Below are positions 1 through 49,752 of a DNA stretch of 64,000 nucleotides, piece by piece. A program made the translations under genes and the position numbers. The notes beneath the pieces are model-generated. The model saw only the letters and a program-made list of their open reading frames with translations. It ran no database searches and was not told where the DNA came from. Within the stretch, counting starts at the first letter, position 1. Each line of letters opens with the position of its first letter. The DNA lies in contig NZ_JAUSKL010000076.1 of assembly GCF_030646925.1 (NCBI RefSeq), forward strand, positions 1 through 64,000, read 5' to 3'. The DNA comes from Candidatus Binatus sp. Its GTDB lineage: Bacteria > Desulfobacterota > Binatia > Binatales > Binataceae.

Positions 1-213
1 GCGCTCGCCGTCATCGACAATTTTATCAAGCCGCTCGCGATGCGCCATGGCACCGGACTGCCGACGCTCGCGCTGTTTCTCGGAATTCTCGGCGGACTCG
101 AAGTTTACGGCCCGCTCGGACTGTTCGCGGGGCCCGCAATAATGGCGGTGTTCGCGGCGCTGGTGCGCGTATATCAGAAGTCGTATTCAGGCAGCCGAAG
201 CGAGATGGTGTGA
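1..213 (+). CDS. AI-2E family transporter, C-terminal end (partial)
   Basis: The window opens inside this gene; 70 codons and a TGA stop are visible. The stretch reading DNFIKPLAMRHGTGLP followed by LFLGILGGLEVYGPLGLF and a hydrophobic run is the typical last re-entrant and membrane region of AI-2E/PerM/YdiK family membrane proteins, which export small molecules or exchange ions across the inner membrane. The substrate cannot be told from this fragment. The last 23 codons of the gene and the first bases after the stop are repeated almost exactly at 2454-2528, so this 3' end seems to have served as the integration target of the adjacent islet. The reading frame is intact to the stop. Confidence 0.85.
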   Translation, partial: ALAVIDNFIKPLAMRHGTGLPTLALFLGILGGLEVYGPLGLFAGPAIMAVFAALVRVYQKSYSGSRSEMV

Positions 214-217
214 GCGC
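143..217 (+). repeat. 75-bp direct repeat, left copy (attL-like)
   Basis: This 75-base segment covers the 3' end of the AI-2E transporter gene and four bases past its stop. It recurs in the same orientation at 2454-2528 with a single mismatch (base 189 G versus 2500 C). The left copy is part of the full-length gene, the usual arrangement when an element integrates into a gene's 3' end and restores it. The direct match is seen in the sequence; the attachment-site role is inferred. Confidence 0.85.
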
Positions 218-363
218 CCGCGACTTTCGCAGGCGAAGATATCTCGACGCGGATGGTCGCGCTGTAGAAAGTTCAGGGGCGCCTTTCTCCTGCAATCCAG
301 CCGGCGGTTTAGGAGAAGAGATCTTTTGACTCCGGCAGCCTCCGCTCAAGATTGTATGGACTT

Positions 364-508
364 GGGAGATAGGTAACGGAACGTGCGGGGAGATAGGTAA
401 CACATTTTAGATTATTGATGAGCAGGTAGATCGAGGTCGATGACGGCGACCACCTGCTGGGGTTAGGTGTTACCCATGTCCTCGCACACCCGTTACCCAT
501 CTCTCGCG
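364..508. mobile_element. Miniature element or insertion-sequence remnant with terminal inverted repeats
   Basis: The left end (364-403) carries GAGATAGGTAAC twice, and the right end (467-508) carries the related GTTACCCAT twice on the opposite strand, so the two ends form imperfect inverted repeats of about 40 bp, each with an internal tandem repeat. A hairpin (AGCAGGT at 421-427, ACCTGCT at 452-458) lies between them. Repeated binding motifs at both ends resemble the termini of IS21-like elements. The interior (about 60 bp) cannot encode a transposase, so this is a remnant or MITE-like element. The assignment to IS21 is only a resemblance. Confidence 0.5.
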
Positions 509-668
509 CACATACAAAGATCACAGAGTGGGGCGAGGACGACGCTCCGTGTCATCCCGCGTGAGCGAAGCGAAGGAAATACGCGATCTCCGCCGGGCAA
601 AATACTCTTCTTCGCCGACCTTTCGCTTTCGCCGACGGTCCGCAGTGACTAGATTATTAGCTGGGTCT

Positions 669-1193
669 ATGTCCGCGATCATTTTCGGAGAATTTGGAGA
701 GAGAGATTTAAACGCCCTCAAACTCGAGACGCGACGAAAACGTCATATCCCAAATAGTCTCAGAGAAGAAATGGCTCCTGAGCAGTTGAAGGCGGTCATA
801 GCCCTAGATCGGAGCCTTTGCCCTGGAGCCGAGCTTAGAAGCATTACTGCCAAGTACAATTGCATGGGAATGGCCTTCGCTTCGCGTCGCACGAATATTG
901 ATATTCGCGATATCGACCTGATTTTTCAGGACGACGAATACGCCCGACTCAACAGCGAGGCCGATGCGGAAGTTGGAGACATTGTCGTGTACCATGGTCC
1001 CAACGACAAACGCTCACATGTCGGTGTCATTGTCGAGCTAAAGCAAGGACTGGTTGACCGAGGCGGACGACATAGGCTTTTAAAGGTATTGAGCAAATGG
1101 GGCGGACACGGAGAGTACGCTCACATGCTCGATCAGATTCCGCCGGACTACGGACGGCCGGCAGAGTTCTGGACGGACAGGAGGCTTCTTTGA
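669..1193 (+). CDS. Putative NlpC/P60- or CHAP-like cysteine hydrolase (uncharacterised)
   Basis: This encodes 174 residues. The C-terminal half has YNCMGMAFA (possible nucleophile Cys), GDIVVYHGP, then SHVGVIVE (possible catalytic His), and ends KWGGHGEYAHMLD...YGRPAEFWTDR. A Cys near the start of the domain followed by a GD-hydrophobic strand and an H-V-G-V strand is the layout of papain-fold NlpC/P60 and CHAP hydrolases, and small proteins with the SKWGG...FWTDR tail recur in bacterial accessory regions. No signal peptide is seen, so it probably acts in the cytoplasm, unlike cell-wall NlpC/P60 enzymes. ATG 669 is chosen because the open frame upstream of it runs through a truncated family B intergenic repeat. 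It overlaps the next gene by 4 bases. Catalytic activity is inferred only. Confidence 0.55.
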   Translation: MSAIIFGEFGERDLNALKLETRRKRHIPNSLREEMAPEQLKAVIALDRSLCPGAELRSITAKYNCMGMAFASRRTNIDIRDIDLIFQDDEYARLNSEADAEVGDIVVYHGPNDKRSHVGVIVELKQGLVDRGGRHRLLKVLSKWGGHGEYAHMLDQIPPDYGRPAEFWTDRRLL

Positions 1194-1762
1194 ATTTCTG
1201 GCAATGTATCCACGAAATCGAGAGTCCGAGGTTCTCGGCCCGCCTCAATTTAGCAAGCGACGCGAGGACGTTCTTCAGCATCGCTGAACGGCAGGAAGCA
1301 GTTCAAGAATGTTGGCGGGAGATGTCCGATGAGAGTCGGTACACGACAGTGCTAAGTCGCCTGCTGGACCTGTCACAGCAGAAAACCGACCTTAGATACG
1401 AGAATCCGAGCGACGTAGCCGTCGCTATCTACTTGTGGCTTTTGGCAGCGAAGAAAAAAGCTCTGGCGAGAGTTGGAGCACAGACGGTGTGGGAACTTCC
1501 ACGTTATTGGTGGGCGAAAGGGATGGCTCGCCAGATTTTATTCGGAGGAGAGAGCCAAGCTGGCTCTACAGCAGGGCAAGTGACGACTGGGGACGCCTAC
1601 GTCAGTGCCCGGAATGATGCCCCGGAGAGGCTGTTTCCTTTGACCTCAATTTTGGGTGGTCCGTTGTTCACAGAGCAGCCGGGATCATTGCACTCAGACG
1701 CGAGGGCGGATTCCTCCGGTACACAGCTTTTCTCTACGCACTCCGACTCGGTCACAATATGA
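1190..1762 (+). CDS. Uncharacterised accessory protein, second gene of islet 1
   Basis: The start is set at TTG 1190, which overlaps the TGA of the upstream gene and follows AGGAGG (1179-1184) at good spacing. The product is 190 residues. The first 115 look protein-like (NFWQCIHEIESPRFSARLN, a Trp/Leu-rich helix around LWLLAAKKKALARVG, then WELPRYWWAKGMARQIL). The last 70 or so are Gly/Ser/Thr-rich and may be disordered. It ends in an ATGA overlap with the third gene. I do not recognise a family. Coupled translation on both sides supports it being a real gene and functionally tied to its neighbours. Confidence 0.5.
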   Translation: MNFWQCIHEIESPRFSARLNLASDARTFFSIAERQEAVQECWREMSDESRYTTVLSRLLDLSQQKTDLRYENPSDVAVAIYLWLLAAKKKALARVGAQTVWELPRYWWAKGMARQILFGGESQAGSTAGQVTTGDAYVSARNDAPERLFPLTSILGGPLFTEQPGSLHSDARADSSGTQLFSTHSDSVTI

Positions 1763-2202
1763 TTCGTCACGTCTGGAGCGTGCTTTGCGCGCGTAGCATT
1801 ATCGACAACGAGTCGAACAACATAAGTCTGCTCGAAGTTCTAGAGCAACTTGCTGTCACCGCTCCTCCGGGCCAAGCTGCCCTTTCGCAGACCGACAAAA
1901 TTTCTGTCCCTTTGAACTCAGAACTCGTAACGCTTTGGACTCGGTCGGGCGACGTGCCTGAACAGAGTAGGGCGCGTATACGCATCGTCAATGCCGGTGG
2001 TGATGAACTGCATGTCTCGGAAATCGCGGTGGATCTCACAAAGCATGCACGGCTGCGGAGCCGCGCGCGGCTCAATGGTCTCGCCATCCGCGGTCCCGGC
2101 GTGCACGAGTTCCGCGTTTCACTCGAAGAGCAGGGTCGTTGGGAAGAAGTGGCAAGGATCCCTCTTCAAATCATTTTCGGACCGCCTCCCACGAGCCCTT
2201 AG
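1759..2202 (+). CDS. DUF6941 family protein
   Basis: This encodes 147 residues beginning MIRHVWSVLCARSIID, followed by NNISLLEVLEQL. That opening (VWSVLC, SIID, NNISLLEV) is the signature of the DUF6941 family of about 140-residue proteins with no known function. The rest is predicted beta-rich, with RARIRIVNAGGDELH and a closing strand near IPLQIIFGPP. There is no signal peptide or membrane segment. ATG 1759 overlaps the previous stop by 4 bases, so the three islet genes form one transcription and translation unit. Family assignment is from recognition of the N-terminal motif; function is unknown. Confidence 0.65.
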   Translation: MIRHVWSVLCARSIIDNESNNISLLEVLEQLAVTAPPGQAALSQTDKISVPLNSELVTLWTRSGDVPEQSRARIRIVNAGGDELHVSEIAVDLTKHARLRSRARLNGLAIRGPGVHEFRVSLEEQGRWEEVARIPLQIIFGPPPTSP

Positions 2203-2600
2203 TTATCATTTCCGCATCGCTGCCGCCTGTATGCGCGCCGTTGGACTCTGATCAAGTCGCCAGCCGGAAAGGGTCCGATGATGGGTTTATCATCGGGGCT
2301 GCGCCGAATAGAGCAAAGGTCGCGCGCAGCATTTTCCCAGATCATTTTTTCTACGAGCGCGCATCCGATCGCGACGGGAAGTTCCCTTCGACCGAACCTT
2401 CAGGGTAACTCCACCTGCGTGAGGTTTTCTGCGCTGTAACGTAATTCGCTTATTGGCGGTGTTCGCGGCGCTGGTGCGCGTATATCAGAAGTCGTATTCA
2501 GCCAGCCGAAGCGAGATGGTGTGAGCGCAGCGTAAGAATCGCCGCTCTCTTTTTCCAGTCTTTCTTTTCCGTCAGCCCGAGCGAAGGCGACCAGAGGGCC
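2203..2600. other. Gene-free end of islet 1 and right junction
   Basis: There is no supportable gene here. The segment holds the distal end of the islet, a possible decayed fragment of repeat family C (CGGGAAG near 2375 and ACCTGCGTGAGGTTT at 2413-2427), the right 75-bp direct repeat (2454-2528), and about 70 bp up to the stop of the next minus-strand gene. Confidence 0.6.
2454..2528 (+). repeat. 75-bp direct repeat, right copy (attR-like)
   Basis: This is the second copy of the AI-2E transporter 3' end, 2311 bp downstream of the first, with 74 of 75 bases identical. Here it is not attached to a coding frame: the bases before 2454 do not continue the transporter gene. It marks the right boundary of the islet. 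Confidence 0.85.
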
Positions 2601-2984
2601 TTAGCCGCGGGCGTAGGGATCGTCCAGCACGAAGCGCCAGGCGCCGTCGGGCTGACGACGCACAACCTCCAACGCGTGATGCTTGATTGAGACGGGCGAG
2701 CCATCCGTGGACTTTCCGAGCATGCTCCAATCGTTGTAGAGCACCGCGAGGTCATCGCCGGCTGGAACGACTCGCACTACGTTCATCGTGACTTTCGATT
2801 CCGACAATGCGGCAAACAGTCCTTGCAGCGTCTCGCGGATAGCCGCGGTTCCTTGAACGGCTATGCCGTCTTCGTTCACGAGACTTGCTTGCGGTTCGTA
2901 GAGCGCGATCAGTTGGTCGAGGTCGCGAGTATTGGCGTAGGCGCCGAAGAGCTCATCGCACTGTTCGGGAGTTTGCGCTGGCAT
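2601..2984 (-). CDS. SnoaL-like / DUF4440 (NTF2-fold) protein
   Basis: This encodes 127 residues. Motifs typical of the SgcJ/EcaC branch of NTF2-like proteins are visible: an N-terminal helix (FGAYANTRDLDQLIALYEP), the strand with ASLVNEDG, GTAAIRETLQGLFA, and a closing beta-sheet with W-R-FVLDDPYARG. Members of this fold are small cytosolic enzymes (isomerases, hydrolases) or ligand-binding proteins; the substrate is unknown. ATG 2984 follows GGAGG with 8-base spacing; a longer upstream frame lacks a ribosome site. The gene is monocistronic, just outside the islet. Confidence 0.75.
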   Translation of the reverse strand: MPAQTPEQCDELFGAYANTRDLDQLIALYEPQASLVNEDGIAVQGTAAIRETLQGLFAALSESKVTMNVVRVVPAGDDLAVLYNDWSMLGKSTDGSPVSIKHHALEVVRRQPDGAWRFVLDDPYARG

Positions 2985-3071
2985 AAGTTTAGGCCTCCAG
3001 GTTCTTTGGCACTCATCCATTCCGGGTGCGCACGTTGCGAAACGGCGTGGAACTCTTGACTAAGCTCAGGG

Positions 3072-4034
3072 CTAGTGAACCGGTCCCGTTGCACCTTTTG
3101 CCTGCTTGGTTACGGTGAAGGGAAACTTGAGGTTGCCACTCGAATTCCACAAGCCCCAGTGCGCTCCCCACGAGTCTTGCACGCTGAGCCAGGGCTGATC
3201 GAGTGCTATAAACACAAAAGTGGAGCCGAGCTTATTCGCGTTCGCGAAGATCGCCTTAGTAAAGGTGGCCTCATTGGCGACGCTCGGGACCGACGAGCCA
3301 TTGGTGGCGCCCGCACTGGGCCATCCGGTCTCACCGATTATAACCTGCTTGCCGTTGAACAGCTTGTTGAACATGGCATAAGCGCCGATCAGGTTTGCTA
3401 TCGCGCCACCGATCGGCACCTTCCCATAAAAGGGGTAGATGTTGATCATCATCGAGTCAACGTGGGGCTTCAGTTGAGCGCCGTAGGACACGGCGGCCTG
3501 ATAGCCGAGCGAGGTAGTGACCTGCACGTTGCCCTTGTTTTTAAGCCTGGTGCGGACATACTGCAAATCGGCGATTAGCTGGGCTACGGAAATCGGCTTC
3601 GAATTGACATCCGTGTCGAGGCATTCGTTACCGACCACAACGGCAATTACGGTCTGCGGGTAGTTGTTGGCAAGGCTAATCGCCGTATCGAGATAGGTAG
3701 TGTCGGCGGAGCTGTTGTAGTCGCTGTTCTCGAAGATGCCCTGGTAGATTTTGAGCTTCGGGAAATGGGTCTTGGCCAGAGGAACCACCTGGTCGAGGCG
3801 CGAATCCGCATCGTCGCCATAGGTCTTAATATAGGTGAACTTCTCGGAAATGATCCCCAGGTCCGAGAGGAACTGGCTATCAGTGATAGGAGTGCCCGGG
3901 TGCTGGCCGCTCTCATGAAACGGTCCGTAGTTGATTCCGAGGTACGGTCCCGCGAATGCGGAGCCCGAGGTCAAGAGGAGCATTAAGCCGGCTAACAGGC
4001 CAGGGACCGAGCGCATCTTTACAGTAATCCTCAA
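3072..4034 (-). CDS. Secreted glycoside hydrolase family 17 (beta-1,3-glucanase-like)
   Basis: This encodes 320 residues with a signal peptide of about 28 residues (VPGLLAGLMLLLTSGSAFAG). The mature domain begins LGINYGPFHESG. VVVGNECL carries the probable acid/base Glu and VIIGETGWPSAG the nucleophile Glu; both are hallmarks of GH17 (TIM-barrel endo-beta-1,3-glucanases and glucanosyltransferases of plants, fungi and some bacteria). It probably cleaves or transglycosylates beta-1,3-glucans outside the cytoplasm. TTG 4034 is preferred over ATG 4016 because AAGGAG lies 8 bases before it. The length is normal for a single-domain GH17, with no carbohydrate-binding module. Confidence 0.85.
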   Translation of the reverse strand: MRITVKMRSVPGLLAGLMLLLTSGSAFAGPYLGINYGPFHESGQHPGTPITDSQFLSDLGIISEKFTYIKTYGDDADSRLDQVVPLAKTHFPKLKIYQGIFENSDYNSSADTTYLDTAISLANNYPQTVIAVVVGNECLDTDVNSKPISVAQLIADLQYVRTRLKNKGNVQVTTSLGYQAAVSYGAQLKPHVDSMMINIYPFYGKVPIGGAIANLIGAYAMFNKLFNGKQVIIGETGWPSAGATNGSSVPSVANEATFTKAIFANANKLGSTFVFIALDQPWLSVQDSWGAHWGLWNSSGNLKFPFTVTKQAKGATGPVH

Positions 4035-4192
4035 TTGAGCGTCTCCTTCCGCGGCAGGTTCTTACTTCTCGCCGACAATTACTCATTGAATATTCAATAT
4101 TCCCTGTGTGTGAAGAAAATTTGCTCAGAAGGACTAAGTAAGTAGTCTCCAGAAAATCGCCTTCCGATTCGCCTGGATCAATCGGAAGCTAT

Positions 4193-5449
4193 CTACGAAG
4201 CAGCGGCGGCGGCCGCTTCGATTTCGCGACGACGACGGCCGGGACCGGTTTCAGGCAGCAGGTACATCGCGCCGATCGGCAGGAACTGCAACACCAGAAA
4301 TCCCAGCATCACGGCTCGCAGTCCGATTGCCGCGGCGATCGCGCCGCCGAGGAATGGCGCGACGAACGCGCCCGCGTAGCCGACCGACCATACGAAGGCG
4401 AGACCGGTGCCCATGCGGGCGGGCGTCATGCCCGGCAGTTCCATCAGCATCGTGACGATCGCGGCGAGCGATCCCGCGGCGCCGATTCCGACCAGCACCA
4501 GCGACAGGCGAATCATGATCGGTTCCTTGATCAGGATTGCGCCGGCGCATCCGACCAGTGTGAAAATCGCAACCGGCCATAAGAATGGTTTGCGCAGTCC
4601 CGTCATGCCGGTGCCGAGACCGCCGCCGACCGAGGCGAAGATTCCGGTGAGCGGCAGCACCGCCGTCATCGAAGAGGCATCGGAGAGGTTCATGCCGCGG
4701 ACGACGTGAAAATACTGAGGGAGAAACGCGGTATATAGCTGGAAGACCCACATGCCGCCGAAGAGGCCAATCGCGATCAGGCGCACGTCGCGCATCCGGA
4801 TCACTTCGCCGAGATTTGAGCGGCTCTCTTCCTGGCCCGGCGCCGGATCGACGGCCGCGATCGCGTGACGCTCGCGCCCGAGTATCGTCCACGCCAGTGC
4901 GACGACGGCAACCGCGATTCCGTATCTGAGCACGACCCGTTGCCACGATGATCCGAGCGCCAGGTAGAGCGGCGCAGTGATCGAGAACACCGCGGTCATG
5001 CCGATATACGAGCAGAGCGCGTTGATCATGTTGATGTAGGGCCACTCACCCTCGCCGAACCATTGCATCGTGAGCGTGCCGGGGGGAGCAATCATCACGC
5101 CGAAACCGACGCCCTCGATCACGCGGCACGCGAGCAACGGGCCGAACGAAGTGCAGAAGCCGCTGAGGATCTGCCCGATCGCGAGCAGCCAGATGCCGAC
5201 GAGAAACGCGCGCAGTGCGCCGAGGCGTTCGGAAATCAGCGCGCCCAGCAGCGAGAAGATCGAGATGCATAGCGCGATGATCGAGATGATCAGCCCGGCG
5301 GTGCCTAGCGAGATGTGAAGATCCTGGATGATCGGCTCGAGAATCGGCGCGGGCGCGAGCCAGGTAACGACCTGGCCGAGGAGGGCTAGAAAAATGAGGA
5401 CCTCGATCACCCATCGGTACGGCGACAACGTGCTTCGATCCATCGGCAT
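4193..5449 (-). CDS. MFS transporter
   Basis: This encodes 418 residues with about 12 hydrophobic segments. The cytoplasmic loop between segments 2 and 3 (ISERLGALRAFLVG) fits the MFS A-motif position, and ARMGTGLAF occurs in the second half. The general look is that of CynX/NimT-like or drug:H+ MFS carriers of the inner membrane. The substrate cannot be deduced. ATG 5449 is well supported by AAGGAG six bases upstream. The C-terminus is Arg-rich, then poly-Ala. It stands alone, but a second, unrelated MFS gene on the same strand lies just upstream (5784-7076). Confidence 0.85.
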   Translation of the reverse strand: MPMDRSTLSPYRWVIEVLIFLALLGQVVTWLAPAPILEPIIQDLHISLGTAGLIISIIALCISIFSLLGALISERLGALRAFLVGIWLLAIGQILSGFCTSFGPLLACRVIEGVGFGVMIAPPGTLTMQWFGEGEWPYINMINALCSYIGMTAVFSITAPLYLALGSSWQRVVLRYGIAVAVVALAWTILGRERHAIAAVDPAPGQEESRSNLGEVIRMRDVRLIAIGLFGGMWVFQLYTAFLPQYFHVVRGMNLSDASSMTAVLPLTGIFASVGGGLGTGMTGLRKPFLWPVAIFTLVGCAGAILIKEPIMIRLSLVLVGIGAAGSLAAIVTMLMELPGMTPARMGTGLAFVWSVGYAGAFVAPFLGGAIAAAIGLRAVMLGFLVLQFLPIGAMYLLPETGPGRRRREIEAAAAAAS

Positions 5450-9873: not shown

Positions 9874-11301
9874 GTGAACAGACGGAGAACGGCCCGGGCC
9901 GCGACCAGGACTAGCCTTATCGCCGGCGTCGCACTGATTTCGATGCTGTGTAACGCCAGCGCCTGGGCAGAAACCACGAAGAAGCATAAGCGGACCAGCG
10001 TCACTACAACCACGTCAACAGTCGTCGCGAGCACGTCCGAGCAGCAGCGCCTCAACGCGCTGGCCGGCCAGATGACCAACCTGCAAAAGCAGAGCGACGA
10101 CACGGTCAGCGAGGTGAAAAAGATCGAGCAGGCGATCACGGTGGCGCCGCCGGCGCAGGCTGATGCGAAGCCGCAGACGGTCGGCGAGCACGTCGGCGTG
10201 CTGGAAAAGAGCTTCGGCGATCTCAAAACCGATCTGGCGAACAATCTGGGGATCCACGTTCACGGCCTGGTCGACGCGGGCTACGAACACAACTTCAACC
10301 AGCCCAATCACAACACCAACGTGATTCGCGTCTTCGACCAAGACGGATTCCAGCTCACGCAGGGTAATATTCACATCGATCGGACCGTTGAGGGAGGAGT
10401 GGGCTTCGTCACTGATCTGAATTTCGGGCAAGTTGCCAACACGTTGTCATTCGCCACTCGTTACTCGAACGCTTTTCCCGTCGGTAACCAATGGTTTGAT
10501 CCGACGCAGTTGTATCTGACCTACACGGCGCCAATTGGATCAGGCATCAACTTTTCGGCCGGACGCTTCGTCACGCTGCTCGGAGCGGAAACGATCAATA
10601 CGTACAACAATCTGAATTTCAACGAGTCGAAGGGCATCATTTTCGGTTTCGGGATCCCCTTCACGCACACCGGAGTTCGGGGCGCATACACGTTCAACGA
10701 TTACGTTTCCTTCATCGGCGGTGTGAACAACGGATGGGACGATCCCGCCGCATTCAACAATGGAGGACCTAACTACGAGGGCGAGTTGGCGCTCAATAAC
10801 AAGGAGAAAACGGTCAGTCTTCTGATCAACGGTATCTGGGGACCAAACCTGGTCGGCAAGTCCAACTCCAATCTGGGCGCTATCGACCCGGTCGCGACCT
10901 GGAAACCGTGGTTCCTCCCCAAGCTGACGCTGCAATCTGAGTACGTGTACGGGACGCAGAGCGGACCGGTCATCAATGGGCATAGCGGAAGCTGGACGGG
11001 CGTGTCGGGCTATGTCGTGTATGATTGGACCGATCAGTTCGAGACAGCCACACGCGGTGAAATGTTCCAGGACAAGGACGGGTCGCGCACCGGCACTGCC
11101 CAGACGCTGTGGGAAGTAACCCAGACTCTTAGCTACAAGATACCGCAAGTGACGGGACTTCTGGGACGGTTGGAATATCGTCACGACAACTCCAGCCAGA
11201 ACGTATTCACTAACAATAACTTCGTCGACCCGGTGACCGGCGTACAACATTTGTGGCGCGGACAGGACACGGTGAGCGCTAACATGATCTACGCCTTCTA
11301 A
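9874..11301 (+). CDS. Outer-membrane beta-barrel porin (BBP2-like)
   Basis: This encodes 475 residues with a signal peptide (TSLIAGVALISMLCNASAWA) and then a coiled-coil-like segment (QQRLNALAGQMTNLQKQSDD, to about residue 105). The barrel has alternating strands: VHGLVDAGYEHNF, QLTQGNIHIDRT, NFSAGRFVTLLGAE, VRGAYTFNDYVSFIGGVNNGWDDP, and a final aromatic residue (MIYAF) as in outer-membrane barrels. It is likely a passive or nutrient-specific porin. GTG 9874 is chosen because GGAGGAGGAG lies just before it. It is upstream of glnA but separated from it by a terminator, so separately transcribed. Confidence 0.8.
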   Translation: MNRRRTARAATRTSLIAGVALISMLCNASAWAETTKKHKRTSVTTTTSTVVASTSEQQRLNALAGQMTNLQKQSDDTVSEVKKIEQAITVAPPAQADAKPQTVGEHVGVLEKSFGDLKTDLANNLGIHVHGLVDAGYEHNFNQPNHNTNVIRVFDQDGFQLTQGNIHIDRTVEGGVGFVTDLNFGQVANTLSFATRYSNAFPVGNQWFDPTQLYLTYTAPIGSGINFSAGRFVTLLGAETINTYNNLNFNESKGIIFGFGIPFTHTGVRGAYTFNDYVSFIGGVNNGWDDPAAFNNGGPNYEGELALNNKEKTVSLLINGIWGPNLVGKSNSNLGAIDPVATWKPWFLPKLTLQSEYVYGTQSGPVINGHSGSWTGVSGYVVYDWTDQFETATRGEMFQDKDGSRTGTAQTLWEVTQTLSYKIPQVTGLLGRLEYRHDNSSQNVFTNNNFVDPVTGVQHLWRGQDTVSANMIYAF

Positions 11302-13340: not shown

Positions 13341-15995
13341 TCAGGTGGTCGGTGTTGCGGTTGGAGTTCTAGTCGCGGTTCTGGTAGCCGTTCTTGTTGC
13401 GGTTCTGGTTGCAGTCTTAGTCTGGGTCGGAGTTTTGGTTGCGGTCTTAGATACCGTCGTGGTGGCGGTCGGTGTTCGGGTTGCGGTCTTGGTAGAAGTC
13501 TTCGTCGCGGTCAGCGTCGAAGTCGGAGTTCGCGAGGCTGTCCGGGTCGCCGTTCTCGTAGCAGTTCTGGTCGCGGTCGAGGTGGGAGTCCGCGTAGCCG
13601 TCCTGGTGGCGGTCCTCGTCGAAGTCTTAGTCGCGGTTCGAGTTGCGGTCTTGGTCCCGGTTCTCGTTGCGGTCGAGGTAGGAGTTCGCGTTGCCGTACG
13701 AGTTGCAGTTCTGGTCGCTGTCCGAGTTGGGGTTCGGGTAGCTGTCGGAGTCCGGGTGGCCGTCCTGGATAACGTAGCAGTAGGTGTGCGACTCGCAGTT
13801 CGAGTCGCAGTACGGGTCGCGGTTCTGGTGGCGGTTCTCGTCGAAGTCCTGCTGGCCGTCTTGGTTGCAGTCTTGGTCGGCGTTCTCGTGGCGGTCCTAG
13901 TTGCGGTCTTGGTGGCGGTCCTGGTCGGGGTCCGAGTTGCCGTGCGGGTTGCGGTCTTGGTCGGGGTCCGGGTAGCCGTCCGAGTCGCGGTGCGGGTTGC
14001 CGTCCTGGTCGGCGTTCTGGTTGCAGTCTTGGTGGCGGTCCTGGTCGGAGTCCGGGTGGCCGTCCGAGTTGCGGTGCGGGTTGCAGTCCTGGTTACCGTC
14101 GCCGTAGCAGTCGGAGTCCGCGTGGCAGTCGCGCTTTTCGTGGAGGCGGCTACCGCGTTCCGCGCATCGACGATTCCTGCCCCGGAATTGACATCGACAC
14201 CCGTACCCTCGTTGTCGAGCGCGGTGGAACTCAAAATACTCTTGACCTGTGTGGGCGTGAGGGTTGACGCACGTGAGAGCATCAGCGCCGCGATTGCGGC
14301 GGCATGTGGCGCCGCCGCCGAGGTGCCAAAGAACGGGGCGAACCCGGGAGTCGCGGTCGTAACCCCGTCGGCAGCCGTGATGTCAGGTTTAGGCAAAAGC
14401 AGGCCACCGCTCGCAAGAAAATTCCCCGGAGTGATCGCCGTCCCGTCGGGGTTATAGAAAATCCTGCGCGGGCCATCGGAGCTGAAGTCCTCTACCGGGT
14501 TGGTCGCACCGCCAACGAAAGGCGCACACGAAGGACACCCTGTCGTAGCCACATCCACCGCGGCGACGCCGAGTGTGTTTTTGCCCGCGGAATGGCCACC
14601 GGTGTTGCCATTGGTGTTGAACTGAATCTGGCCACGCAAGGTATCCAGGTGAAGGAATCGGGGCGAACCCTGAAAAAGCACTATCGCGAGACGAAAGCCC
14701 GTTGCATTCCCACTGAAACCCAGTTGCTCGATAGGATCCTGGGTTCCGTTTTGAGAGTTGGTGCTCGACAGGACCACGCTTGTTCCGGCAGGGTTAAGCA
14801 AGAAAAGATCGTAGTCGTTGCTCGAGCCACCAAATAGGTCAGACCATTGTAAGACCACGGCTCCGAAGGGGGGATTTTTGGTGATGGGATTGGTGTTCTG
14901 TCCTCCGCCGAAATCGAGTGCCGATTTGTATACGGCGGAATCGAAAGGCGCCGGCAAGGTAGTGGCAACGTAGTTGCCTTCCCAGGTGCCTGACGTCCCC
15001 TTCTTCTTGCTACCGCCGTTGCCTGAGGAAGAGAAGTAAATTGTTCCGTTTGCGACCGCTGCGCTGATCGCTTGAGCGATGATGCCGTCCTGAAAAACCG
15101 GCTCAGCGAAGTAAAATACATCGTCCACAATCACCTTCGCTCCGGCCGTCTGGAGCGATGTGATGTTAGTCGCAAAGGCCGCTTGGCCTCCATTGGCAGT
15201 GGCAAATGCCAGATTCGCACCGGGTGCAAGATCAAAGACGATCTCCAGCATCGCGCTGCCCTCTGATCCGCTGCCAGCTTTTCCCGGCAGAACCTGCAAG
15301 CACGGCGGACCAGCCGGGCAGTTAGGCGGCAGATCCCCGGTAGCCTGTACTGTGCTCAACGGGTCCACTCCGTCAGACAGGACTCCAACCTTGATCCCCG
15401 AACCGTTAATGCTGAAGGTCGACCGGGCGGTGTTGGCGCGATGAGTGATGTCGCCTTCGCTGGTGTCGTCCTTATTAGTGCCAAATTCCTCGGCGGGCTT
15501 GATGAACTTGACGTCCGGCATCGCGGCCATATCTTCCAGTGCGTTGATCGGTATAGAAGCGCGCATCGCGTTGTACTGAGGAAAGCTGTTGATCACGGTC
15601 CCGCCAACCGCACTGATTTTGGCCAGTACGGCAGCGGTGACCTTCGCCTTGATGTCGACGATTGTCGTGCCGTCATTTTCGACCTGCACACCAGTTAGCA
15701 TTTCCGGCACACCAGGCGCGGGCGCGATGCCCTTGTGCTGCCGCGCTGCATCCAAGAGTCTGGAATCAATTTTCCGTTGCGCTGGAGTGCGCGCCTCTTT
15801 CGCGGCCATGATCGCCTCAATCTGCGCGATCGCATTTTTGCTGAGGGGTTCGGCTCTTAGCACGGGAGCAGTGATGACAACTACAGCTGCGACTAAAAGC
15901 CACAGCCGGGCGGCGCGACAGACGCTTTGATACTTTCCGGAATGGCCGTGGCTCGGATTGCGTGAAAGTTCTACTACTGATTCGGGAGAGGCCAT
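13341..15995 (-). CDS. Subtilase (S8/S53-like) serine peptidase with long Thr-Ala-Thr-Arg repeat tail
   Basis: This encodes 884 residues. A hydrophobic segment at 31-48 is a signal or anchor. The peptidase domain (about 195-615) has KVGVLSDGVD (Asp208), GSEGSAMLEIV (Glu245 where subtilisins have the His of HGTHV), FSSSGNGG (oxyanion Asn326) and FFGTSAAAPH (Ser559). The Asp-Glu-Ser set recalls sedolisins and a group of secreted subtilases with D/E-E-G-T-A-M. A domain of about 100 residues is inserted between the Asn and Ser motifs. Residues 618-884 are almost entirely T-x repeats (TATRTATRTPT), probably an extended, perhaps glycosylated stalk. ATG 15995 has AGGAAG just upstream; a TTG eight codons earlier is possible. 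It would be exported; the substrate is unknown. Confidence 0.8.
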   Translation of the reverse strand: MASPESVVELSRNPSHGHSGKYQSVCRAARLWLLVAAVVVITAPVLRAEPLSKNAIAQIEAIMAAKEARTPAQRKIDSRLLDAARQHKGIAPAPGVPEMLTGVQVENDGTTIVDIKAKVTAAVLAKISAVGGTVINSFPQYNAMRASIPINALEDMAAMPDVKFIKPAEEFGTNKDDTSEGDITHRANTARSTFSINGSGIKVGVLSDGVDPLSTVQATGDLPPNCPAGPPCLQVLPGKAGSGSEGSAMLEIVFDLAPGANLAFATANGGQAAFATNITSLQTAGAKVIVDDVFYFAEPVFQDGIIAQAISAAVANGTIYFSSSGNGGSKKKGTSGTWEGNYVATTLPAPFDSAVYKSALDFGGGQNTNPITKNPPFGAVVLQWSDLFGGSSNDYDLFLLNPAGTSVVLSSTNSQNGTQDPIEQLGFSGNATGFRLAIVLFQGSPRFLHLDTLRGQIQFNTNGNTGGHSAGKNTLGVAAVDVATTGCPSCAPFVGGATNPVEDFSSDGPRRIFYNPDGTAITPGNFLASGGLLLPKPDITAADGVTTATPGFAPFFGTSAAAPHAAAIAALMLSRASTLTPTQVKSILSSTALDNEGTGVDVNSGAGIVDARNAVAASTKSATATRTPTATATVTRTATRTATRTATRTPTRTATKTATRTPTRTATRTATRTATRTPTKTATRTATRTPTRTATKTATRTATRTPTKTATKTASRTSTRTATRTATRTATRTASRTPTATLSRTATRTPTATRTPTRTATRTATRTATRTPTSTATRTGTKTATRTATKTSTRTATRTATRTPTSTATRTATRTATRTASRTPTSTLTATKTSTKTATRTPTATTTVSKTATKTPTQTKTATRTATRTATRTATRTPTATPTT
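13344..14142 (-). repeat. 12-bp coding tandem repeat array (TATR units)
   Basis: About 800 bp of degenerate 12-bp units, each encoding T-A-T-R or a variant with P, S or K, make up the tail of the peptidase gene. The phase is kept throughout and substitutions concentrate on the R/K and A/P codons. The array is prone to slippage, so its length may differ between strains or be misassembled. Confidence 0.85.
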
Positions 15996-38447: not shown

Positions 38448-39275
38448 TCAGTGAAGGATCGAGCGTGCCGGCCGCGTTTGCGACGCGACGACGCGGAACT
38501 CGGAACGCGCGGAAAGAGAAACCGCCGGGATGTCGCGATCGTCGAGCCTCGACCATCTGAAGAAAATCAGCGTGAACACGATCATCAGGTAGGAGCCCTG
38601 CCCGATCCACATCAGCAAGCCGCCGAGCACCTGATCGTCCATCGGCGCAAGGCCCCATCCGTGCGCGCCTTCGGTGTACCAAGGATAAATGACCGTGCTC
38701 GCGAGCGTGATTGGCGCGGCGACGGCGGTCATCGGGATCATCAACAGAAACAGATACAGAATTTGCGCGGGATACGAGAGGCGAGGCATCTCGGGGATCG
38801 GGCTCAGGATCGGCCACCACATCAGCACTCCCGCCGCCATGAACACGAGGTGCAGAACGATGTGAAAACTTTCGTCGCGGCACATCCGCTCGAAAATCAC
38901 GGGGAAGTGCGCAGTGACGAAGACCGCGGAGAATAGCAGGAAGGCGATCACGGGCTGAGTCAGCAGTGCGAAGATCGGTTTCAGCGGACGCGCCAGCACG
39001 ATCGGACGCAGCATCCAGCCCGGCGTTCCGAGCAGCAGCAGCGGCGGGATCACGAAGGTCTGCATCAGATGCTGCAACATGTGCATCGTGAAGATGCGCG
39101 CGTCGGCGAGTTCGTCGAGTTCGGTGTGCGTGTAGAGAATCGCGGCCATCGCGGCGGCGAACCACATCACCTGCCGGCGAGTCGGACGGCGACGCATTGC
39201 GCGCGACGCGCCCAGGTAGAGCGCGATCAGCGCGGCGACGCCTAGCGGTACGCTTGGATGCTCGAAGAGTTCCAT
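38448..39275 (-). CDS. ctaG: CtaG-type cytochrome c oxidase assembly protein
   Basis: This encodes 275 residues with about seven membrane helices. HMLQHLMQTFVIPPLLLLGTPG and HIVLHLVFMAAGVLMWWPIL are the signature of the caa3_CtaG family, which helps insert copper into caa3-type oxidases of bacilli and others. It is last in the act-cox operon and overlaps the subunit IV gene by 34 bases, consistent with an assembly role for this oxidase. The His-rich motifs may bind copper. Confidence 0.85.
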   Translation of the reverse strand: MELFEHPSVPLGVAALIALYLGASRAMRRRPTRRQVMWFAAAMAAILYTHTELDELADARIFTMHMLQHLMQTFVIPPLLLLGTPGWMLRPIVLARPLKPIFALLTQPVIAFLLFSAVFVTAHFPVIFERMCRDESFHIVLHLVFMAAGVLMWWPILSPIPEMPRLSYPAQILYLFLLMIPMTAVAAPITLASTVIYPWYTEGAHGWGLAPMDDQVLGGLLMWIGQGSYLMIVFTLIFFRWSRLDDRDIPAVSLSARSEFRVVASQTRPARSILH

Positions 39276-39640: not shown

Positions 39641-42108
39641 GCGTTCTTCACCGTTTGCATCAGGTACACCAGCGTAAAAATTATGATCCAGACCACATCG
39701 ACAAAATGCCAGTAGAGGCCCGCAAGCTCGAGCGCGAGCGCACGCGATTTTCCGAGCCTTCCCGCAATCGCGGCGCATAGCAGCACGGTCAGCCACAGCA
39801 CTCCGATCGCGACGTGCGCGCCGTGGAATCCGACCAGCGCGAAAAATGATTGCGAGAACAGGTTGGTCGTGAGGCCCATCCCTTCATTGTAGAAGCTTAA
39901 GAATTCGTAAACCTGGCCGCCGAGGAAAATCAGGCCGAACGACACCGTTCCCGCGAGCCAGATTTTTTCCCAGCGCGAATCACCACGCTGCGCCGCCGCG
40001 AGTGCGAGCACCATCAGGAGTGAACTCATCAGCAGGATGAATGTACTGACGGAGGTGAGCGGGATGTTGAGAATTTCGGGGCCAGGGCCGCCGATACTGC
40101 GCGATTTGTAAACGATGAAGGTCGAGATCAGGCTCGCGAAAAATACGCACTCGGAACCGATGAAGGACCACACGCCGATCTTGCGCACGTCGATACCGCC
40201 GGACGACGGCGCGTGCTCAGGGTCGTGGAATTCCTCGCCGAAGCCGGGATACTCGAAGCTCATGCCAACGATCGACACGATCGTAGCGAGCGCGCCGATC
40301 ACGACGACGCGATACCAATCGATGATGAGGCCGAGGCCCATCACGCCGATGGCGAGACTCATCACCAGCGGGAAGATCGAAGGTGCGGGCATGTGGATGC
40401 GCGAGGTATCGGCGAATTGCTCGGTTCCTGGCTGCGGCGATTGCGCCGCCATGAAGGCCGCGACGCCGCGCGATCCGGCGCGGCCATACTTGACGATCCA
40501 CCACGCGTCGCGGCCGCGGACTTGCGGAATCGTCGCGAAGTTGTAGGCGGGCGGCGGCGACAACATCGACCACTCGAGACTGCGCCCGTCCCACGGATCG
40601 CTCGGCGCCTTTTCGCCGACCGCTAGGCTCCTGAAAATGTTTATGTACATCAGCAGGAAGCCGAGCCCGAGTACGAACGCGCCGACGGTTTCGACCTGGT
40701 TCAGATACGTCCAGCCCATGTCGGCGCCGTAAGTGTAGATGCGGCGCGGCATCCCCCACATGCCGAGATAGTGCATCGGAAAGAACGTGACGTTGAAGCC
40801 GACCACGGTGAGCCAGAATTGCCACTTGCCGATTTTTTCGCTGAGCATCGCGCCGGTGATTTTCGGCCACCAGTAGTAGAAGCCCGCCATGATCGCGAAC
40901 ATCACGCCGCCGAACAGCACGTAGTGAAAATGCGCAACGACGAAGTACGAATCGGTCTGCTGCAAATCGATCGGCGCGCTCGCGTGCATCACGCCGCTCA
41001 AGCCGCCGACGGTAAATTCGAGAATCATGCCGAGCGCGAAGTAAAATGCGGTGGTCATCCGGAGCGAACCGCCCCAGATGGTCGCGATCCAGCTAAAAAT
41101 TTTGACGCCGGTCGGAATCGCGATGAGCATCGAGGTGATCGCGAACGCGGAATCCGCCACCGGGCCCATGCCGGTCGCGAACATGTGATGACCCCAGACG
41201 CCGTAGGAGAGAAACGCGATCAGCACGATCGAGTAGGCCATCATCGGGTAGCCGAACAGCGGCTTGCGCGAATGAGTCGGCACTACTTCGGAAATAATCC
41301 CGAAGGCGGGCAGCGCCATGATATACACTTCGGGATGGCCGAATAGCCAGAAGAGATGCTGCCATAGTATAGGAGTCGCGCCAGCACTGACTATGTAGAA
41401 ATGCGTATTGAAGAAACGGTCGAGAAGCAGAAATATCAGTCCAATAGTCAGTGGCGGAAATGCGATCAGAATGAGTATTGAAGTGACCAGCATCGCCCAG
41501 ACGAACATGGGCATCCGCATGTAGGTCATGCCGGGCGCGCGCATCGCGACGATCGTCGTGAAAAAATTAAGCCCGGTCAGAACGGTCGAGGTGCCGGAGA
41601 CCAAAAGGCCGATAACCCACCAATCGATCGAGAGCGTTGGCGAGAAATAGCGCTCGGTCAAGTTCGCGTAGCCGAACCATCCGGCGTCGGGCAGGCCGCC
41701 GCGAATCCAGCCGAGATGAAGCAGGACGCCCGCTACCAGAGCCATCCAGAAGCTGAGCGCATTGAGGCGCGGGAAGGCGACGTCGCGCGCGCCGATTTGC
41801 AGCGGGATCAGGAAGTTGCCCATGAAGCCGAGCAGCAGCGGCATCACGACCAGGAAGACCATCGTGGTGCCGTGCATCGTGAAAAACGCGTTGTAGGTCG
41901 CGGCGGACAGCACGTGATTGTCGGGGCTCCAAAGTTGCGCGCGAATCGCCATCGCTTCGAGGCCGCCGAGCGCCATGAAGACTAGCGCGCTGACCGCATA
42001 CATCACGGCGACGCGCTTGTGATCGATCGTCATCAGCCAGCCGAGCACGCCGCCGCCTTCGAGATAGCTCGGTTGCAGTGTGGGCAATGGTTTGGGCTGG
42101 GCGGCCAT
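39637..42108 (-). CDS. coxAC: Cytochrome c oxidase, fused subunits I and III
   Basis: This encodes 823 residues. The first 560 or so are subunit I: TMHGTTMVF (low-spin haem His), WLFGHPEVYI (CuB His and the cross-linked Tyr), GVWGHHMFATGM (CuB His pair) and VAHFHYVLFGG (haem a3 and a His). The last 200 or so are subunit III: VWSFIGSECVFFASLIST, QVYEFLSFYNEGMGL, GFHGAHVAIGV and YWHFVDVVWIIIF. Fusion of I and III is known in caa3 oxidases such as that of Thermus. This is the proton-pumping, oxygen-reducing core. It is translationally coupled to subunit IV downstream. Confidence 0.93.
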   Translation of the reverse strand: MAAQPKPLPTLQPSYLEGGGVLGWLMTIDHKRVAVMYAVSALVFMALGGLEAMAIRAQLWSPDNHVLSAATYNAFFTMHGTTMVFLVVMPLLLGFMGNFLIPLQIGARDVAFPRLNALSFWMALVAGVLLHLGWIRGGLPDAGWFGYANLTERYFSPTLSIDWWVIGLLVSGTSTVLTGLNFFTTIVAMRAPGMTYMRMPMFVWAMLVTSILILIAFPPLTIGLIFLLLDRFFNTHFYIVSAGATPILWQHLFWLFGHPEVYIMALPAFGIISEVVPTHSRKPLFGYPMMAYSIVLIAFLSYGVWGHHMFATGMGPVADSAFAITSMLIAIPTGVKIFSWIATIWGGSLRMTTAFYFALGMILEFTVGGLSGVMHASAPIDLQQTDSYFVVAHFHYVLFGGVMFAIMAGFYYWWPKITGAMLSEKIGKWQFWLTVVGFNVTFFPMHYLGMWGMPRRIYTYGADMGWTYLNQVETVGAFVLGLGFLLMYINIFRSLAVGEKAPSDPWDGRSLEWSMLSPPPAYNFATIPQVRGRDAWWIVKYGRAGSRGVAAFMAAQSPQPGTEQFADTSRIHMPAPSIFPLVMSLAIGVMGLGLIIDWYRVVVIGALATIVSIVGMSFEYPGFGEEFHDPEHAPSSGGIDVRKIGVWSFIGSECVFFASLISTFIVYKSRSIGGPGPEILNIPLTSVSTFILLMSSLLMVLALAAAQRGDSRWEKIWLAGTVSFGLIFLGGQVYEFLSFYNEGMGLTTNLFSQSFFALVGFHGAHVAIGVLWLTVLLCAAIAGRLGKSRALALELAGLYWHFVDVVWIIIFTLVYLMQTVKNA

Positions 42109-44400: not shown

Positions 44401-44910
44401 CTACGCGGCGTCACACAACACCTCTTCCGCGCCGGCCTCTTTCAGCATCGATTCGACGCGGGCCGATTGACCGTCGTCGCATCGCACCACCAGTCCGAAA
44501 CGATCCGCGGAAAAGCGCGCACGATATCCGCGATTGGCCTCGAGCGCCGGCAGACCCGCGAGGAAAAGCACTCCGAAGAAGCTGAAAATGCCGCCCAGGA
44601 GAATCATCATCTCGAACGTAATGACGATGAACGGCGGCCACGAGAGCAGCGGTCGGCCGCCGGCGTTGAGACGCCATTCGTAAGTCGTGCCGATCGTGAT
44701 CGCGAGTCCGGCGAGAACACCTAAGATTCCGCCCGCCAGCGCGATCCATCGCACGGGACTGCGCGAACGTCCCAACGCGTGCTCGATACGATGACTCGGA
44801 ATCGGCGAAAAGGTGCTGAAGTCCATGATACTCGCATCGCGCAACGCTTCGATCGCGTGCGCGCACAACTCGTCGTCGGTGAACGATCCTATGACAGTAA
44901 CGGTGCTCAT
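44401..44910 (-). CDS. actD: Alternative complex III subunit ActD (DUF3341)
   Basis: This encodes 169 residues with two membrane helices: IALAGGILGVLAGLAITIGT and PPFIVITFEMMILLGGIFSFFGVLF. The soluble N-terminal part has FTDDELCAHAIEALRDASIMDFSTFSPIPSHRIEHALG, and the C-terminus ARFSADRFGLVVRCDDG...AGAEEV, both standard for ActD. The subunit contributes to the membrane sector; its exact role is unclear. ATG 44910 overlaps ActC's stop by 4 bases. Confidence 0.9.
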   Translation of the reverse strand: MSTVTVIGSFTDDELCAHAIEALRDASIMDFSTFSPIPSHRIEHALGRSRSPVRWIALAGGILGVLAGLAITIGTTYEWRLNAGGRPLLSWPPFIVITFEMMILLGGIFSFFGVLFLAGLPALEANRGYRARFSADRFGLVVRCDDGQSARVESMLKEAGAEEVLCDAA

Positions 44911-46265
44911 GCGGCTTTCGCGACTTCTCTCTGCAGCGCCTTGCGGAGCCAGATGATTCCTTCCTTGAGTTCCGTCATCGAGACGATTGGCAGAAATTTC
45001 GTGAATAGAGAGAAGAGGCCGAGGAACCACGCGAAGCTGCCGATCGTGATCGCGATCTCGGTGATCGAAGGATGATAGCCAGCCCATTGCGACGGTTCGA
45101 AATTGACCGTGAGCGAGCCCGCGATGATCACGAAGCGCTCAAACCACATGCCGATATTGACGAAGATAGTGATTATCCAGAGCGCGGTCAGGTTAACGCG
45201 GATGCGCGGCGAGAATAGCAACAACGGGATTAGGCAGTTGCAAAGCACCATTACCCAGTACATCCATCCCCACGCGCCGAAGTAGCGCATGTGAAATGTC
45301 ATTTGCTCGATCGGATCGCCCGCATACCAGGTCATGAATGCTTCGGTGACGTAGGCGTAGGAAACCACCAGCGACGTCAGCAGTACGACTTTCGCGAGAT
45401 TGTCGAAATGCCACGGAGTCAGCAAATCCTCGATTCCGAGCCATTTTCGCATCGGAATCAGCAGCGTTAACACCATCGCGACGCCGGAGAAAATCGCGCC
45501 GGCGACGAAATAGGGAGCGAAGATAGTGCTGTGCCAGCCGGGCAATTGCGCCATCGCAAAATCCCATGACACTACTGAATGAACCGAAATGACTAATGGA
45601 GTAGCTAATCCCGCGAGTAGCAAGTAGGCCATCGAGTAATGACGCCACTGGCGGTCGGTCCCCTGCCATCCCATCGCGAGCGCGGTGTAAAACTTCTTGC
45701 GCCATCCGCTCGCCGCCTCGCGCGCGTTGGCGATATCGGGCAGCAAGCCCATTGTCCAGAAGAGCGTGCTGGTCGTTAGATAGGTACCGACTGCAAAGGC
45801 GTCCCACACCAGCGGCGAGCGGAAGTCTGGTTGCAGATAGCGCTCGTTGGGGTAGGGCAACAGCCAGTAGAAAAACCAGACGCGGCCCAAATGGATCAAC
45901 GGGAACAGGCCCGCGGTCGCGACTGCGAAGATCGTCATGGTCTCGGCGGCGCGATAAACGGCGGTGCGCCACTTGGTGCGGAACAAAAACAGGATCGCCG
46001 AGATGAGCGTGCCGGAGTGCGCGATGCCGACCCAGAAAACAAAGTTCGTAATGTACACCGCCCACATCACGGGCTGGCGCAGGCCGGTCACGCCGAGGCC
46101 CGAATAAATTTGGCGCGCCCACATCGCGCCCGCGATCGCGACCAGCGTGAAGCAGAAGCCGACCCATATCCAGTAGGCGCGGCCGGCCGCTTCCATCACG
46201 CGCAGCACGCTGCGATCGATATCGCCGAAGTTCGGTGCGACCGGTTGCTTGAGCGCGGCGGCCAT
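44907..46265 (-). CDS. actC: Alternative complex III membrane subunit ActC (NrfD-like)
   Basis: This encodes 452 residues with about 10 helices. VMWAVYITNFVFWVGIAHSGTLISAILFLFRTKWR, IHLGRVWFFYWLLPYPNE, SVHSVVSWDFAMAQLPGWHSTIF and WFERFVIIAGSL are typical ActC/PsrC-like quinol-site and helix motifs. ATG 46265 has AAGGA upstream, and the TAA of ActB overlaps it (TAATG). Together with ActB and ActA it oxidises quinol and passes electrons to the iron-sulfur and haem subunits. Confidence 0.92.
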   Translation of the reverse strand: MAAALKQPVAPNFGDIDRSVLRVMEAAGRAYWIWVGFCFTLVAIAGAMWARQIYSGLGVTGLRQPVMWAVYITNFVFWVGIAHSGTLISAILFLFRTKWRTAVYRAAETMTIFAVATAGLFPLIHLGRVWFFYWLLPYPNERYLQPDFRSPLVWDAFAVGTYLTTSTLFWTMGLLPDIANAREAASGWRKKFYTALAMGWQGTDRQWRHYSMAYLLLAGLATPLVISVHSVVSWDFAMAQLPGWHSTIFAPYFVAGAIFSGVAMVLTLLIPMRKWLGIEDLLTPWHFDNLAKVVLLTSLVVSYAYVTEAFMTWYAGDPIEQMTFHMRYFGAWGWMYWVMVLCNCLIPLLLFSPRIRVNLTALWIITIFVNIGMWFERFVIIAGSLTVNFEPSQWAGYHPSITEIAITIGSFAWFLGLFSLFTKFLPIVSMTELKEGIIWLRKALQREVAKAA

Positions 46266-49230: not shown

Positions 49231-49752
49231 TCAGTGATGACACGCGACGCAATCGAGCGTGGCTTTCCTTTCAGTGTGGCAATCGACGCAGAAGCCCATG
49301 TTGATTTCCTTCACCGGCACGACGCGATCCATCGTTTGTACCGGACCGTGACAGCTTTGGCATTCGATGCCGGCGTGGATATGAGGCCTATGCGTGAATC
49401 GCACAAAGTCGGGAAGCGTGTAAACGCGGTTCCATCGAATCTCGAACGGAGGCTCGGCGGTGTCGGTCCATGGCCGCGTGACGGGTTCGATTCCTCCGCC
49501 GGCGATTCCGCTGCCATGGCATCCGACGCATCGCGCGACCGCCGGGATACCCGGTTCCGACGAACGGCCTGCGTAAGCATGGCAGTACTGGCAGGGGATT
49601 TTGTTCACGCCGGCGTGGACGCGATGACTGAACGGAATTGGCTGGACGACATCGGCGCGCGGCAACCACGGACGCTCGGAAACGCCGATCGAGGCGATGC
49701 CCAGGACAATCAGCATCAGAGCGAGCGGCAGCATTATGCGGTTGAGGTTCAT
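49231..49752 (-). CDS. actA: Alternative complex III pentahaem cytochrome ActA
   Basis: This encodes 173 residues with one N-terminal membrane anchor (IMLPLALMLIVLGIASIGV). There are five C-x2-CH haem sites: CQYCH, CVGCH, CQSCH, CVDCH and CVACH. The FSHRVHAG and FTHRPHIHAG motifs supply axial His residues. This is the periplasmic electron exit of the complex and the first gene of the nine-gene act-cox operon. A 249-bp divergent spacer separates it from dapL, with AT-rich runs suited to promoters. Confidence 0.93.
   Translation of the reverse strand: MNLNRIMLPLALMLIVLGIASIGVSERPWLPRADVVQPIPFSHRVHAGVNKIPCQYCHAYAGRSSEPGIPAVARCVGCHGSGIAGGGIEPVTRPWTDTAEPPFEIRWNRVYTLPDFVRFTHRPHIHAGIECQSCHGPVQTMDRVVPVKEINMGFCVDCHTERKATLDCVACHH

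Follow-up and report, generated by a model that had tools for sequence, protein, structure and literature searches.

A transporter gene end repeated around an integrase-less islet in Candidatus Binatus, a possible case of homology-anchored DNA acquisition

Introduction

At CDI and Rhs loci, replacement of a toxin end leaves orphan 3' ends behind. The entry of integrase-less genes into chromosomes is known mostly from laboratory crosses. Linear DNA fragments homologous to the chromosome at one end only were found to integrate into E. coli mainly by recircularisation and a single crossover, a route that gives rise to partial gene duplications (PMC3240628). In that study, a PCR product (a duplication) was obtained from 56 of 60 clones, the 14 that were sequenced measuring 109-950 bp, and 4 of the 60 integrants represented true homology-facilitated illegitimate recombination (HFIR; Prudhomme 2002, de Vries and Wackernagel 2002, as cited in PMC3240628). 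Our literature searches found no precedent in the phylum studied here, nor any for integrase-less islets of the form described below.

Here we analyze a stretch of 64,000 nucleotides from Candidatus Binatus sp. (GCF_030646925.1, contig NZ_JAUSKL010000076.1, positions 1 to 64,000 of the forward strand; hereafter the window). An earlier note, made from the sequence alone, had read the 3' end of an AI-2E family transporter gene in this window as the footprint of an integrated element.

Results

The transporter gene end is present twice

The first base of the window is the first base of its contig (C76) in an assembly of 4.58 Mb and 126 contigs, and the 5' part of the AI-2E gene lies on a second contig, C28, with which it shares a perfect overlap of 135 bp (window 1-135 = C28:1-135). 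Contig ends elsewhere in the assembly overlap by 141 bp, and the overlap of 135 bp rather than 141 bp suggests a branch just upstream of the repeat. Bridged across C28 and C76, the AI-2E frame is intact at 357 aa; its orthologue in the related genome G003 (L029) matches PF01594.

The final 71 nt of this frame, including the TGA stop codon at 211-213, together with 4 further nt make up a 75-bp core that recurs in the same orientation with one mismatch and a start-to-start spacing of 2311 bp (Table 1), exactly as the earlier note had described. The repeat search returned this pair as 140-217 / 2451-2528, 78 nt at 97% identity and with the same spacing. The copies differ at position 142 (A/T, beyond the 75-bp core) and at 191/2502 (G/C), and the longest exact stretch common to both is 48 nt. 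The left copy reads in frame with the AI-2E gene and the right copy is an orphan, with nothing of the transporter gene preceding 2451; the intact frame on one side and the lack of a gene upstream of the copy on the other bear out the claim that the left copy completes the gene and the right one is orphaned. A whole-genome search found no third copy of the 75-bp repeat, and chance is excluded as the origin of the pair. We also considered the second copy as part of a tandem transporter paralogue and rejected this, given that there is no transporter sequence upstream of 2451.

Table 1. Features of the window and repeat pairs at other loci of the same genome. Positions without a contig name are those of the window.
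Feature	Position	Strand	Basis	Islet between the copies
AI-2E family transporter, 3' part, last 70 codons and stop	1..213	+	ORF; C28 overlap; 357-aa frame; PF01594 on orthologue	
Left repeat copy, last 71 nt including TGA and 4 nt	143..217	+	repeat search	
Dispersed short repeat, many copies in genome and relatives	318..352		genome searches	
MITE-like hairpin, nested inverted ends ggagataggtaac ... gttacccatctct	364..515		sequence; predicted fold	
Cargo gene 1, 174 aa, weakly CHAP/DUF7689-like (cysteine hydrolase-like)	669..1193	+	match below gathering cut-off	
Cargo gene 2, 190 aa, overlaps stop of gene 1, no family	1190..1762	+	profile and homologue searches	
Cargo gene 3, 147 aa, weakly DUF6941-like	1759..2202	+	match under curated cut-off	
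Copy of dispersed intergenic repeat of the genus, left of right repeat copy	2355..2427		genome searches	
Right, orphan repeat copy, one mismatch (Gly to Ala codon)	2454..2528	+	repeat search	
SnoaL-like gene, right flank; not beside transporter or MFS genes in relatives	2601..3020	-	family match; relatives compared	
GH17-like gene, at this place only in source genome	3072..4034	-	family match; relatives compared	
MFS gene, start of block conserved in relatives	4193..5449	-	relatives compared	
icd 3' end, 100 bp ending exactly at stop	C20:33894-33993 / 39148-39247 (L184)			5.3 kb
Methyltransferase 3' end, 119 bp	C66:113961-114079 / 115730-115848 (L144)			ADP-ribosylglycohydrolase
SDR 3' end, 238 bp	C122:46921-47158 / 49390-49627 (L134)			mobile mystery proteins A and B
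Small gene 5' end	C46:42431-42639 / 44723-44931 (L159)			berberine-bridge-type (BBE) oxidase
leuD 3' end, 32 bp	C84:33333-33364 / 39777-39808 (L181)			RND efflux operon
Alpha/beta hydrolase 3' end, 41 bp	C122:10422-10462 / 14419-14459 (L132)			CHAT-domain protein
Nmad3 3' end, 55 bp	C4:9454-9508 / 10608-10662 (L162)			further islet

Contents of the islet

Between the two copies lie, in order, a dispersed 35-bp repeat, a MITE-like hairpin, three ORFs on the same strand and a dispersed repeat of the genus, which ends 26 bp before the right copy. The three cargo ORFs overlap at their ends in an operon-like arrangement. The predicted fold for 356-530 is -74.4 kcal/mol; the hairpin resembles insertion-sequence ends, and no other copy of it was seen in the same genome. 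Both dispersed repeat families have many copies here and in G003 and few in other members of the genus.

The cargo genes are almost unknown in the phylum, and among 395 of its genomes gene 1 has one distant homologue and gene 2 has none. The absence of an integrase inside the islet, already reported in the earlier note, holds for the wider search: none of the three ORFs matched a recombinase, a transposase or a reverse transcriptase. Searches with the cargo against defence and NCBI families gave no match, and those against plasmid, phage and viral collections gave no meaningful one. Elsewhere, relatives of the DUF6941-like gene sit directly 3' of HicB-type genes. At three loci (L107:1456-2789, L108:998-1953 and L109:1483-2585), DUF6941-like proteins come after HicA/HicB or HicB-like genes, the identity of HicA/HicB being confirmed for L107; L109 also has a CPCC-like ORF and a small ORF of no assigned family. 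It is possible that DUF6941-like proteins are the third gene of toxin-antitoxin-like loci, and these observations at most hint that the cargo belongs in a toxin-antitoxin or defence setting.

Neighbourhood of the transporter in relatives

The relatives used for comparison, Candidatus Binatus soli and further Binataceae, were all assembled from metagenomes. In the 27 loci that we examined in them (some of which are the same locus fetched twice), the AI-2E end is single-copy, no repeat of it occurs downstream of the transporter and, in most cases, an SDR gene follows; beyond the SDR gene, G003 and G001 carry a CCA-type nucleotidyltransferase (neighbour names were read from sequence). The source genome carries its SDR block on contig C46, next to a methyltransferase-like gene. 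The earlier note had looked to relatives for a site that is uninterrupted and has the repeat once, and one copy is indeed what they have, with the SDR gene next to it rather than window 2529 onwards; the latter arrangement was found in none of the 58 genomes searched, source genome included. A donor genome in which the islet follows AI-2E was not found among the relatives searched, and neither were the larger versions with a tyrosine recombinase that the note had envisaged.

The flank at 2529-4200 is likewise absent from relatives, and the stretch 218-4200 as a whole is specific to the source genome and lower in G+C. The MFS block that comes next (from 4203) is kept in five members of the genus, where it adjoins an IMPase/cmk/pgpA/cinA block that the source genome carries on contigs C61 and C10. 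Judging from gene order, we take the AI-2E locus to be rearranged, a rearrangement breakpoint, since its usual SDR neighbour lies on another contig.

A class of direct repeat pairs in the same genome

We scanned 1.18 Mb of the same genome's 4.58 Mb, about a quarter, for repeats of 30-1500 bp that are at least 85% alike, less than 20 kb apart and present exactly twice. The scan of this one genome yielded 11 unique direct pairs and no inverted pair, with repeats of 32-238 bp that lie 0.4-6.4 kb apart. If both orientations were equal, the chance of an 11:0 split would be about 0.0005, although tandem duplication also favours direct pairs. About 7 of the 11 pairs are at gene 3' ends and consist of a complete gene and an orphan end, the targets being AI-2E, icd, leuD (named from its own sequence), SDR, methyltransferase, alpha/beta hydrolase and Nmad3 genes (Table 1). 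Each repeat pair matches itself alone in the 1.18 Mb, and there is no core common to the sites. The right boundary falls at +4 nt from the stop in AI-2E, at 0 in icd and at +2 in the alpha/beta hydrolase, and left boundaries lie inside genes. In the methyltransferase and Nmad3 genes, the complete gene is kept with its last codons changed.

The islets differ in content. For instance, the icd islet holds DedA/rhodanese-like, ArsR-like, GST-like and TetR-like genes; in the SDR islet, mobile mystery protein B (Fic) passes the cut-off and a zinc-ribbon protein is also present. One pair lies upstream of a gene and comes with a DUF4160/DUF2442 pair, two more pairs fit no category, and some of the 11 may be tandem paralogues of old date. 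In 495 kb of relatives there were three direct pairs (one at a tRNA, two of them dispersed-repeat copies) and no inverted pair. A tRNA-Leu 3' end repeated in G003 (G003:C86:52516-52550 / 54750-54784, L227) encloses a 2.2-kb islet with no integrase.

Insertion and copy divergence at other loci

At the methyltransferase locus on C66, an islet-free counterpart is available. G003 has a single repeat copy, followed after about 120 bp by a SnoaL-like gene (empty site L203), and the same SnoaL-like gene follows the orphan copy in the source genome. Because the collinear, islet-free site of G003 shows the same end and flank, the orphan and its flank on C66 can be regarded as native, and we take this comparison as proof of insertion at the locus. 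In a second example, the C46 oxidase islet is absent from G003 (L196), where the left flank, the upstream gene and the gene are otherwise collinear, which supports an apparent insertion on C46. The 356 kb of G003 gave no informative empty site for the pairs on C122, C84, C4 and C20, and six relatives gave no donor evidence 3' of icd.

The copies differ from each other by synonymous third-position changes in 6 of 6 cases for icd, in 5 of 5 for the methyltransferase and in 5 of 7 for the C46 pair. Given that all differences are synonymous in the icd and methyltransferase pairs, these point to a diverged functional donor allele; synonymous-only differences are not what copying within the genome and subsequent neutral decay would produce. 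The SDR orphan carries a nonsense codon and the AI-2E orphan a missense change, as expected for later decay of orphans. To tell the native copy from the donor one, we compared both with relatives; the two were about equally far from G003.

The integration footprint proposed in the earlier note survives in part. The restored gene end, the orphan copy and the foreign-looking cargo are all present, the pattern recurs in the genome, and the C66 locus has an islet-free relative. Nothing was found that points to a site-specific recombinase: the islet encodes none, the sites have no core in common, and a 5' end is the target once.

Origin of the islet

Based on these data, we tentatively propose that the AI-2E islet is DNA acquired by a homology-anchored, recombinase-free route. 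We infer that the islet DNA may have arrived joined to a copy of the transporter 3' end from a close relative. A single homologous crossover in the AI-2E gene would have linked the donor end and the islet to the chromosome, and the other end would have been closed by a non-homologous join inside the resident gene; alternatively, the fragment might have circularised first and entered by a single crossover. Either route would give a complete gene, then the islet and then, orphaned, the former end of the resident gene, and the repeat would be the overlap from an arbitrary join (143) to the end of the likeness between donor and resident (217), just past the stop codon. One homologous and one non-homologous join together explain the boundary at the gene end, the arbitrary other boundary, the unrelated targets and the 5' version on C46, a case that a 3'-end integrase does not predict. 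At the AI-2E locus, where the copies differ at one base only, a foreign allele is not visible. The 32-bp repeat on C84 offers little homology for a single crossover, and the circle route would not suit that locus. We hold this reading of the AI-2E locus tentatively because the evidence there does not separate homology-anchored entry, site-specific integration and duplication at a breakpoint.

Site-specific integration, which we consider unlikely, would make the islet an integrase-less satellite or a decayed element, with a tyrosine recombinase that acted in trans or has since been lost and with the 75-bp repeats as attL and attR. With the gene end restored on one side and a displaced copy on the other, it explains the 3'-end cases equally well. 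Its targets would include icd, which is also a well-known phage attachment gene; the tRNA-Leu-bounded islet of G003 is also without an integrase, and the genome has four tyrosine recombinase matches, one of which, on C3, stands beside a conjugation-like ATPase ORF in what we read as a setting that is not Xer-like. However, the islet contains no recombinase and had no meaningful match in plasmid, phage and viral collections; the pairs sit at sites unrelated to one another and without a core in common, their repeats are anywhere from 32 to 238 bp long, and one case is at a 5' end. Site-specific integration needs a separate specificity per site in addition to an absent enzyme. Because the targets differ, share no core and in two pairs show synonymous-only differences, we favour homology-anchored entry.

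It is rather improbable that the repeat is a rearrangement scar, formed when copying or tandem duplication placed the 75-bp gene piece in the new junction as the AI-2E end left the SDR gene, the islet being the sequence between breakpoints. Both sides of the locus are rearranged, with the SDR and IMPase blocks on other contigs, and the absence of 218-4200 from relatives, its lower G+C and the single-base difference between the copies fit such a scar; so do the dispersed genus-specific repeats inside the islet, which imply that this DNA has been resident in such genomes for some time. The end of the repeat 4 nt past the stop codon would nevertheless be a coincidence, and an outside donor is needed to account for the other pairs that have an empty site or copies diverged at synonymous positions.

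An assembly artefact, in which strain variants of the metagenome were chained into a false direct repeat, is very improbable. The window does start at a contig end, and its overlap with C28 has an unusual length. However, the 141-bp overlap of other contig ends means that the final k-mer was far longer than the 48 identical bases that the copies share at most, which makes a false repeat pair unlikely; moreover, the junction between the islet and the right copy has no homology able to create such a join, and the C66 insertion is confirmed by G003. Diversity-generating retroelements also have a gene 3' end repeated downstream, so that a variable repeat at the gene end with a template repeat downstream would fit the geometry, but the islet has no reverse transcriptase and the core mismatch is G/C rather than at adenine, and we give this explanation practically no weight.

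Discussion

Turning back to homology-anchored entry, we regard it as quite conceivable, though with less assurance than for the single locus, that this lineage gains small islets, several of them with toxin-antitoxin or defence-like genes, without a recombinase by using conserved gene ends as landing pads, and that each genome holds tens of scars able to date and orient acquisitions. If this is true, the scar delimits the acquired DNA on either side and shows the donor gene end, and with recurrent scars one could count gene captures in natural populations, apart from phage and integrase islands. The ratio of direct to inverted pairs (11:0) is a simple screen that can be used on any genome, with a baseline that comes from one genome here.

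Of the systems already described, HFIR and the single crossover of a recircularised fragment share with the proposed route one homologous end and one non-homologous join, and the E. coli products carry partial gene duplications. These processes are known from laboratory selections, whereas here the route is deduced from footprints that occur naturally in a soil bacterium not in culture. In addition, classical HFIR leads to a deletion, not a duplication, and the repeats here are often shorter than the E. coli ones. Tyrosine-integrase islands (Islander, PMC4383910) are alike in that the target gene is restored and a displaced fragment marks the other end. In contrast to them, the loci described here have no integrase, many unrelated targets, no common core, a 5'-end case and, in two pairs, synonymous-only differences between copies. 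The CDI and Rhs loci resemble C66 and C4, where a new gene end and cargo are followed by the displaced old end. Unlike those loci, the targets here are ordinary metabolic genes whose end is mostly restored, not changed.
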